Shown here: positions 40,195 through 42,028 of the stretch, in pieces
Layout of the letters: each line of letters starts with the position of its first letter
Numbering within the stretch: the stretch's first letter is position 1
DNA from: an uncultured Pelagibacteraceae bacterium
GTDB taxonomy: Bacteria; Pseudomonadota; Alphaproteobacteria; Pelagibacterales; Pelagibacteraceae
Reading direction: 5' to 3'
Assembly: GCA_902604695.1 (NCBI GenBank)
Contig: CACKZT010000006.1
Coordinates: forward strand, 1 to 45,995
DNA length: 45,995 nt
The notes under the pieces: model-generated
What the model was told of the DNA's origin: nothing
The model's input: only the letters and a program-made list of their open reading frames with translations
Databases searched by the model: none
Made by a program: the position numbers and the translations under genes

Positions 40195-40788
40195 TTAACC
40201 TATAAGAAAAATTCCGAGTTTAGAGAAAAAATTTTTTATTTCGAGATTACTTTTTTTTATCTCAGATGTATTATTTTCGTTAATTCCAATTACTTTTTTA
40301 ATTTTTATATTTTTTTCGATACAGAAGTGAAATAAATCTTTAACTGTGCACATATGTAAATTTGGGGTATTATACCACGAGTTTGGTAAAGTTTTAGTAA
40401 CTGGCATTTTACCAAAAAATAATAAACTAGCCCTTACTTTCCAATAACCAAAGTTAGGTATAGAAATAACTACTGATTTTCCTATTCTTAACAATTCTTT
40501 CAAAACTTTTTCTGGATTATAAAAAGCTTGGAGAGTTTGGCTTAATATCACATAATCAAAAGACTGGTTTGGAAATTGATGAAGTTCAGTCTCAGCATTT
40601 CCTTGTATAACAGGTAAACCTCTATAAATACATTTTTGGACATTTTCTTTTTCAAGTTCTAGACCTCGAGCTTCTATATTTTTTTCTTGTATGAGATGAC
40701 TCATTAATGAGCCATCACCACAACCTACATCTAAAACTCTTATATTTTGTGGCAGCAAATCTGCGATTACTTTAAATTCTTTTTTCAT
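40195..40788 (-). CDS. metW: methionine biosynthesis protein MetW
   Basis: MetW is a methyltransferase-fold partner of MetX; in several alphaproteobacteria it is required for full homoserine acetyltransferase activity. The 197-residue protein shows RVLDVGCGDGSLMSHL near 17-32, GLELEKENVQKCIYRGLPVIQGNAE, FDYVILSQTLQAFYNPEKVLKEL, and SIPNFGYWKVRASLLFFGKMPVTKTLPNSWYNTPNLHMCT, all MetW features. It overlaps the metX 3' end by 17 bases and so is coupled to it and to the upstream riboswitch. Confidence 0.95.
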   Translation of the reverse strand: MKKEFKVIADLLPQNIRVLDVGCGDGSLMSHLIQEKNIEARGLELEKENVQKCIYRGLPVIQGNAETELHQFPNQSFDYVILSQTLQAFYNPEKVLKELLRIGKSVVISIPNFGYWKVRASLLFFGKMPVTKTLPNSWYNTPNLHMCTVKDLFHFCIEKNIKIKKVIGINENNTSEIKKSNLEIKNFFSKLGIFLIG

Positions 40789-41911
40789 TTCTAAATTTCG
40801 TATGCATTGAGTCCAAAAACCCTTTCAAAGTTTTAAGAAACTCTGGTTCATTAACTAAAAAGGAGTCATGCCCTTTATCCGTCGTGATTTCAGAAAATGA
40901 AACATCAGCTCCTGAAGCATTTAATGCAATCACGATATCTTTATTTTCTTTAGTCGTGTAAAGCCAATCTGAAGAAAAAGAAATTACTAAGTATTTAATT
41001 TTTTGACCTTTAAAAGCTTCCAAAAGACCACCTTTAAATTTTTTTGATAGATCAAAATAATCCATTGCTCTAGTGATGTATAAAATTGAATTAGCATCAA
41101 ATCTCTCTACAAAGGTATATCCTTGGTGTCTCAAATAAGATTCTACTTGAAAGTCAGCATTAAAACTAAATTCATAATCAGCTTTCTCTTGAAGTTTTCT
41201 TCCGAACTTTTCTTGCATACCTTTCTCTGATAAATAAGTAATATGTCCTACCATTCTTGCTACAGCTAATCCATTTTTGGGTTGAACATTTTTTTTTATA
41301 TATTTACCGTTGTCCCATACTGGATCAGCCATAATAGCTTGTCTGGCTAATTCGTTAAGCGCAATATTTTGAGCACTATGACTTGTGCTACAAGCGATTG
41401 GAATTGCTGAAAAAGTTCTATTAGGAAATGTTGAACAAAATTCAAGTAATTGCATTCCCCCCATTGATCCTCCAGTTGCACATAAAAGTTTATTTATACC
41501 CAAGTAATCTAGAAGAGTTTCTTGCGCATTTACCATATCTCTAATGGTGATTACTGGAAAATTTAATCCGTAAGGTTCGTTAGTTTTTTTATCTATTTCT
41601 TTCGGCCCCCATGATCCCATACATCCACCAATAACATTTGCGCAAATTACAAAATATTTGTCTGTATCTATTGCCTTACCCGGCCCTACTGCTGTTACCC
41701 ACCAACCTTCTTTTTTTGTAATAGGATTTATATTACTGACAAATTGATCTCCTGTAAGTGCATGAAAAACAAGTATAGCGTTATCTTTATTTTTATTTAA
41801 CTTTCCATAAGTTTCGTAAGCTAATGGAAAATCTTTAATAGTTTTCCCACAATCTAATTTAAGTGGTTTTTCTACTATTATGTGTTTTATATTTTCAGTT
41901 TTATAGTTCAT
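40772..41911 (-). CDS. metX: homoserine O-acetyltransferase
   Basis: First committed step of methionine synthesis: acetylation of homoserine. It has an alpha/beta-hydrolase fold with the nucleophile S149 in ATGGSMGGMQ, WVTAVGPGKAIDTDKYFVICANVIGGCMGS near 71-100, and a catalytic His in DKGHDSFLV about 30 residues from the end. The frame is open to a TTG at 41941, but that stretch encodes the leader terminator. I therefore place the start at ATG 41911, giving 379 residues. No ribosome-binding site lies directly before this ATG, which is preceded by the T tract. It is controlled by the SAM-II riboswitch and is followed by overlapping metW. Confidence 0.95.
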   Translation of the reverse strand: MNYKTENIKHIIVEKPLKLDCGKTIKDFPLAYETYGKLNKNKDNAILVFHALTGDQFVSNINPITKKEGWWVTAVGPGKAIDTDKYFVICANVIGGCMGSWGPKEIDKKTNEPYGLNFPVITIRDMVNAQETLLDYLGINKLLCATGGSMGGMQLLEFCSTFPNRTFSAIPIACSTSHSAQNIALNELARQAIMADPVWDNGKYIKKNVQPKNGLAVARMVGHITYLSEKGMQEKFGRKLQEKADYEFSFNADFQVESYLRHQGYTFVERFDANSILYITRAMDYFDLSKKFKGGLLEAFKGQKIKYLVISFSSDWLYTTKENKDIVIALNASGADVSFSEITTDKGHDSFLVNEPEFLKTLKGFLDSMHTKFRNEKRI

Positions 41912-41913
41912 AT

Positions 41914-41939
41914 AAAAAAAAAGCCCAGCTAAACTGGGC
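41914..41939 (-). terminator. intrinsic terminator in the metX leader
   Basis: On the minus strand GCCCAG (41939-41934), loop TTTAG, CTGGGC (41928-41923), then nine T residues (41922-41914). This is a textbook intrinsic terminator ending two bases before the metX ATG. It sits directly behind the SAM-II aptamer. An alternative helix with the aptamer tail would disrupt it, so it is the expression platform rather than an operon end. Confidence 0.88.
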
Positions 41940-41943
41940 AAAT

Positions 41944-41995
41944 CCCTGTTTAGCGAAATTTATCTAGCGCCCGCAATTCGGTTAAATCAGCGCTA
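41944..41995 (-). promoter_or_regulatory. SAM-II riboswitch aptamer upstream of metX
   Basis: These 52 bases match the SAM-II (metA-type) aptamer as I recall it from the marine metX example. The P1 arms AGCGC (41994-41990) and GCGCT (41970-41966) pair. The loop holds TGATTTAACCG, followed after P1 by GATAAAT and the conserved GCTAAA (41954-41949), ending in AGGG (41947-41944). ATTTA and TAAAT are complementary, as needed for the pseudoknot. The outer P1 pair appears to have changed in a compensating way relative to the remembered reference. SAM binding should repress metX-metW. A terminator follows directly, suggesting control of transcription. Confidence 0.93.
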
Positions 41996-41999
41996 CATA

Positions 42000-42028
42000 T
42001 ATGTACTAAATAGTCATAAACTTGTCAA
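42000..42028 (-). promoter_or_regulatory. probable metX promoter
   Basis: On the minus strand there is a perfect TTGACA (42028-42023), a 17-base spacer and a poor -10, TACATA (42005-42000). Transcription would start around 41993-41995, at the first bases of the riboswitch P1 stem, so almost no untranslated RNA would precede the aptamer. The other side, 42029-42101, holds the hisC upstream region: AT-rich, with no promoter I would defend. Confidence 0.5.

Follow-up and report, generated by a model that had tools for sequence, protein, structure and literature searches.

The window (the whole stretch of DNA analysed, 45,995 nucleotides) comes from an uncultured Pelagibacteraceae bacterium, the genome of which is 78.6% complete. 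The 52-nt SAM-II aptamer that a preliminary description had placed before metX is located there, and its methionine-gene context was confirmed, as the aptamer is followed on the minus strand by metX and then by metW. The leader also contains an intrinsic terminator and a candidate antiterminator (Table 1). Upstream of P1 there is a TTGACA hexamer resembling a -35 box, whereas no clear -10 box was found upstream of the window aptamer by eye. The exact hexamer is present in all 60 metX loci with a similar terminator (type A, see below), in 52 of them at the same distance as in the window and in 8 at a distance of 39. Since 31% of shuffled upstream stretches contain a match to five of its six positions, the weight of this signal rests on its fixed position, and therefore the transcription start is placed just before P1. 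Among the 42 open reading frames of at least 120 codons in the window, called mechanically from ATG starts, only 8 have an upstream Shine-Dalgarno match of at least four nucleotides; the use of Shine-Dalgarno boxes in this organism may be low.

Table 1. Features of the metX locus in the window
Feature	Position	Strand	Comment
SAM-II aptamer, 52 nt	41944..41995	-	RF00521 match; P2 pairing via homology to the crystal-structure RNA
P1	41995-41990 with 41970-41965	-	aptamer stem
P2b strand UUGC	41976-41973, with GCUAA 41954-41950	-	homology to the crystal-structure RNA
GCUAAA	41949..41954	-	5' half of the antiterminator core
Intrinsic terminator	41914..41939	-	stem-loop GCCCAGTTTAGCTGGGC 41939-41923, -10.8 kcal/mol; nine U 41922-41914
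Candidate antiterminator hairpin	41928..41954	-	-12.1 kcal/mol alone, 5-nt loop
metX	40772..41911	-	homoserine O-acetyltransferase, 379 aa; NF001209, E 1e-153, 511.7 bits (cut-off 331)
metX ATG	41911-41909	-	2 nt past the T tract
metW	40195..40788	-	next gene, overlaps the end of metX; TIGR02081, E 4.3e-70
-35-like hexamer TTGACA	42023..42028	-	35 nt upstream of P1

The P1 stem, the L1 sequence GAUUU and the P2b strands UUGC and GCUAA are all present in the window aptamer, which ends with AGGG. We take UUGC to pair with GCUAA, by homology to the crystal-structure RNA, and GCUAAA to be the SAM-binding strand of the pseudoknot. The proposed search with the Rfam model RF00521 produced a full-length match (model positions 1-79), but at 27.9 bits (E 0.0018) it falls short of the gathering score, 36. 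This shortfall seems to be a property of the model, because even the locus carrying the crystal-structure RNA reaches no more than 34.1 bits and the cut-off is passed in none of the family's 247 genomes; matches with E at most 0.001 are present in 152 of these.

The terminator hairpin has a GCCCAG/CUGGGC stem and the loop UUUAG, followed by the U tract. The aptamer strand GCUAAACAGGG (41954-41944) pairs with the terminator strand CCCAGUUUAGC (41938-41928), 41954-41948 with 41934-41928 (7 bp) and 41946-41944 with 41938-41936 (3 bp), the two parts being separated by an A-A mismatch, 41947/41935. Thus both complementarities described earlier, that of GCTAAAC (41954-41948) to GTTTAGC (41934-41928) and that of GCTAAACAGGG (41954-41944) to CCCAGTTTAGC (41938-41928) with one mismatch, are observed. 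The spacer coordinates, 41943-41940, had been given correctly, but there are four rather than five bases between the aptamer and the stem. The three helices, those of the aptamer, the antiterminator and the terminator, are present in the sequence and are mutually exclusive. When the growing chain was folded, the antiterminator belonged to the minimum-energy fold for chain ends 41928 to 41923, and from 41922 on the terminator was slightly ahead. Forced on the full leader, the terminator and the antiterminator have -27.5 and -26.7 kcal/mol, respectively, the pseudoknot and SAM being ignored. Near-equal energies and an antiterminator made first are the requirements of a kinetic switch.

It is highly likely that this element is a SAM-II riboswitch turning off metX, or metX with metW, by transcription termination. 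At low SAM, the terminator's 5' arm and loop, as soon as they are synthesised, would capture GCUAAACAGGG, the aptamer's 3' strand. The antiterminator would form approximately five nucleotides before completion of the terminator, allowing the polymerase to run on into metX. With SAM in place, GCUAAA would be held in the pseudoknot with the ligand and the antiterminator would be blocked; the GCCCAG/CUGGGC hairpin with the U tract would then halt transcription immediately ahead of the start codon of metX. Such an outcome, with SAM leading to the terminator, is well supported as a model by the anatomy, the energies, the order of transcription and the conservation, which also back the exclusivity of the three structures proposed originally. 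On the best reading, the special feature of the switch is that its antiterminator strand is the ligand-contacting strand; therefore UUUAGC or UUAGC would be needed around the terminator loop. We know of no other reason for this loop to be UUUAG. The element is very probably a real and well-conserved transcriptional SAM-II switch, of an ordinary kind but with an unusual antiterminator.

We analysed 131 loci of the family, 31 derived from the search and 100 fetched as regions, among the matches listed from the 152 genomes; nearly all listed loci outside this set belong to the genus g4. GCTAAA is present in all 131 loci, as the search pattern itself required it. Four types of expression platform were distinguished. 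Type A (60 loci) comprises metX with the terminator GCCCAG-UUUAG-CUGGGC or near variants; type B (32 loci), other genes with the terminator CCACCG-CUUUAGC-CGGUGG or near variants; type C (25 loci), metX with no GC-rich terminator; type D (10 loci), genes other than metX with GGAG(G) 3-4 nt before the ATG and no terminator. Thus 60 of the 85 metX leaders contain the terminator, and the remaining 25 have another platform. A contiguous antiterminator helix of at least seven pairs, at least four of them formed by GCUAAA bases, is present in all 60 terminator-bearing metX leaders; in the 32 loci of other genes the contiguous helix has nine pairs in 27 cases, seven or eight in two, and five in three. 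Many loci are near-identical relatives, so that the 60 metX loci represent 8 distinct 7+7 rows. The antiterminators were compared with randomised sequences, in which the aptamer tail and the base pairs and composition of the terminator were kept, and the stem order, the loop and the spacer were permuted (a single run, 500 permutations for each of 56 distinct sequences from the 92 terminator-bearing loci). Scored on the chain up to one base past the loop, the window antiterminator has -8.9 kcal/mol versus a randomised mean of -3.1 kcal/mol and is better than 99.4% of the 500 permutations (p 0.006). The p-value is below 0.05 in 45 of the 56 distinct sequences and at most 0.01 in 32; the 11 non-significant ones are all nine sequences of a distant metX group (protein identity under 75%), L030 and L066.

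The complementarity might be fortuitous, with a real terminator that is uncoupled from SAM. Strict covariation of GCTAAAC and GTTTAGC, proposed as a check in the preliminary description, did not appear: no pair from 1 to 6 changes on both sides in the aligned loci of the family, because GCUAAA is invariant. This invariance leaves room for a chance match. Double-sided change is seen only at pair 7 and only between two platform types: the window has C-G at this position, the other-gene type has G-C, and 50 of the 60 metX loci (4 of the 8 distinct rows) show an A-G mismatch. On the other hand, in the three of the 60 loci where the base before GCUAAA cannot pair, the base after it always does, compared to 7 of the other 57, and thus seven pairs are kept (kinship uncorrected). 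Sliding the partner strand by 1-3 bases decreases pairing from 88% to 9-59% in the metX type and from 92% to 29-67% in the other-gene type (L203 and L208 were left out of this control and of the covariation count). A small control in the same genome, with only eight terminators satisfying a strict rule in 446 kb (the window and 400 kb of other stretches, L134-L153), points both ways: TTAG is present in three of the eight, the window terminator included, whereas TTTAG and the 7-nt complement to GCTAAAC are found only in that of the window. With two unrelated stems, GCCCAG and CCACCG, sharing the same loop complement, and with the p of 0.006 for the window pairing, we give a fortuitous match hardly any credit. 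Strong intrinsic terminators, as counted in this control, seem to be rare in the genome.

Two other explanations involve translation. In the published occlusion model, described for the metX RNA in PMC10907184 and for SAM-II in PMC12434664 and PMC5352136 (as far as the available parts of these papers go), AGGG at the 3' end of the aptamer would be the ribosome-binding site, hidden directly by SAM. Indeed, 36 of 50 close metX leaders have an in-frame ATG directly before the CCC of the terminator. However, this place is taken by TAG in six of the other 14, by another triplet in seven and by an ATG out of frame in one, and the window has TTG. An ATG after the U tract is present in all 50, but it is 30-33 nt from GG, beyond the working distance of a Shine-Dalgarno box, and under the switching model GGG would be paired in both states, in P2a or in the antiterminator. 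Loci of the family that do look like Shine-Dalgarno control, with GGAG(G) 3-4 nt before the ATG, are 10 of the 14 that have neither metX nor a terminator. Thus occlusion is very improbable here. Dual control, as in Sinorhizobium meliloti metA, would combine a more or less constitutive terminator between two AUGs with an aptamer Shine-Dalgarno box that exerts its effect from a distance and also via mRNA stability. The order is shared with the metA leader of PMC9373788: first the aptamer, then AUG1 (in some species), the terminator and AUG2. However, according to the available text of that paper, no SAM-II-driven antiterminator could be predicted for metA, whereas here it is strong and conserved, and AUG1 is not conserved, being in frame in the 36 of 50 leaders mentioned above. 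Dual control is therefore an unlikely description of the window leader, and we retain transcription termination opposed by a GCUAAA-based antiterminator.

Terminators after SAM-II aptamers are old knowledge (available parts of PMC1273637, PMC2258182, PMC9481103, PMC6061858 and PMC9373788). PMC5069961, in the text at hand, incidentally ascribes an effect on transcription to the bhmT and metX SAM-II elements of Ca. P. ubique, whereas the corresponding text of PMC6061858 has metX SAM-II as 'rare translational', and translational SAM-II also features in sections of PMC10907184, PMC5352136 and PMC12434664. As to the initial characterisation of SAM-II as mostly translation-controlling, this label is attached in these sources to the metX RNA of the crystal structure, and terminator-linked representatives have long been known. 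The literature searched, part of it available as excerpts, did not describe any GCUAAA-based antiterminator; an earlier mention in Gilbert 2008, Poiata 2009 or Chen 2012 is possible.

The 52-nt sequence called SAM-II-WT in the available part of PMC8494917 has exact copies in two records of uncultured Pelagibacteraceae within the genome collection, AG-914-J05 and AG-918-M15, both of which match genomes listed under the genus of the window. We take this sequence to be the RNA of PDB 2QWY, a metX aptamer from the Sargasso Sea. In both copies it is followed, three bases on, by GCCCAGTTTAGCTGGGC and nine T. Its native antiterminator has -10.4 kcal/mol, with p 0.006 in the randomisation (L009). Further copies were not found in viral contigs with 51 of the 52 bases as the pattern. 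The gene, the 52-nt architecture, the terminator and its loop are the same as in the window. After GCUAAA the window has C where the 2QWY RNA has A, which adds one pair there, but the window lacks the extra pairs that this RNA has before GCUAAA. In print this RNA is translational, and its native terminator and antiterminator are unmentioned in the available text. SAM-II, above all the 52-nt RNA, is treated as a model of ribosome-site occlusion in a review and some biophysical work (PMC10907184, PMC12434664 and PMC5352136), one of which, in the portions considered, expressly describes it as lacking shared-sequence exchange. In these two loci (L009 and L010, from the contigs of L132 and L133) an in-frame AUG directly follows AGGGG, and it is suggested, without proof, that this codon led to the translational assignment. 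If translation started there, MetX would be extended by MPSLAGLFFW, a peptide encoded by the terminator, and gene callers may choose this start. As the metX start in general, an AUG directly before the terminator was rejected, since it is in frame in only those 36 of the 50 close leaders. That the crystal RNA has a native terminator, though it was called translational up to 2025, looks new in the literature searched, some of it seen in excerpt.

In the sister family, which belongs to the same taxonomic order, the core is likewise paired in 24 of 26 terminator-bearing loci, with UUAGU or UAGC loops; these antiterminators are weaker (-2.4 to -7.0 kcal/mol), and so is the slide control (64% versus 4-57%). 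In other Alphaproteobacteria, 35 of 50 sampled loci have a terminator. The transcriptional OFF logic is common to these loci and the window, but 33 of the 35 pair the P2a strand (of the GGUCGGG type in many) by a loose rule, which accepts any pairing within the 12 bases that follow GCUAAA as long as no more than three core bases are paired; the two scored as core lie within larger folds. S. meliloti metZ, predicted by its authors to be a terminator-linked transcriptional SAM-II, belongs to the same wider group; the sample of 35 did not include S. meliloti. In total 80 loci were considered, 30 from the sister family and 50 from the class, the latter being 30 fetched ones and 20 picked among the matches listed, with preference for smaller genomes; the counts of 26 and 35 exclude 7 loci without the aptamer pattern and 12 without a terminator by rule. 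L185 and L202, among those counted as terminator-less, are terminator-like by eye, and in L162 the terminator is misplaced in the P2a/core count. UUUAG was also considered as a general feature of SAM-II terminators and rejected, being absent in the 35 loci outside Pelagibacterales and in the 26 of the sister family, which have UUAG or similar loops. Because the sister family has 24 of 26 core-paired loci and the wider class 33 of 35 with P2a, core antitermination looks like a Pelagibacterales trait. Its frequency there as compared to P2a elsewhere also looks new in the literature searched. Taken together, it is fairly likely that the SAM-II RNA used as the structural model is natively a transcription-terminating strand-exchange switch, and that in the order Pelagibacterales the antiterminator has shifted to the SAM-binding core from its place on the P2a extension. 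The genomic surroundings speak for the crystal RNA having been studied without its expression platform, and for its 3' strand undergoing exchange after all.

Type B includes tandem SAM-II/SAM-V leaders. According to the available text of PMC9481103, SAM-II always precedes a terminator in such tandems. Three type B genes were tested and encode, one each, a Cys/Met PLP enzyme, a homocysteine S-methyltransferase and a methylenetetrahydrofolate reductase. A SAM-V aptamer (RF01826) lies behind the terminator in L006 and L116; none was found behind L036 by covariance search. The tandem leaders of SAR11 (e.g. bhmT) resemble the window in having SAM-II and a terminator with an antiterminator to GCUAAA, but differ in the stem CCACCG/CGGUGG, the longer helix GCUAAAGCG/CGCUUUAGC and the SAM-V aptamer that comes next. 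In the sections of PMC11508383 considered, the linker makes SAM-II of the tandem RNA unresponsive to SAM, an effect that is called puzzling and not fully understood, and oligonucleotides on the U tract and beyond restore responsiveness. The stretch after SAM-II in type B contains the complement of GCUAAAGCG, and the U tract is at 78-96 (counted in type B loci from a start of our choice) versus U82-U90 in the Ca. P. ubique RNA of that study. Judging from these sequences, the GCUAAA antiterminator could explain the silencing of SAM-II by the linker. The restoration by oligonucleotides in PMC11508383, as reported in the part available, is compatible with this cause but is no proof of it. The antiterminator would thus offer a direct cause for SAM-II being non-functional in the tandem RNA of PMC11508383.

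Most type C leaders have a different alternative hairpin, UGAAUUGCGAG/CUCACAAUUCA, which is weaker: p is 0.04-0.2 in 20 of 24 distinct sequences, with the range 0.005-0.57. In L013, L027, L048 and others the aptamer is followed by 5-8 T and then by CTCACAATTCA or a close variant; CTCACAATTCA is complementary to the L1/P1 strand TGAATTGCGAG. For most of them an anti-aptamer hairpin is the best predicted fold, and its inner A/U helix lies immediately ahead of the start codon. Besides the 10 loci of type D, the 14 loci with neither metX nor a terminator include three metW-like ones (identified by eye from the N-terminus, two of them read at length) and one homocysteine-methyltransferase-like one, also called by eye. 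Type D has a true translational look by its sequence. The proteins read in three of its loci (the type consists of L068, L032, L029 and seven more) are 55-61 aa long; two of the three have no Pfam match, and the NCBIfam matches are insignificant. A SAM-regulated small protein is possible. With 25 metX leaders of the family having no such terminator, the expression platform changes around one conserved aptamer.
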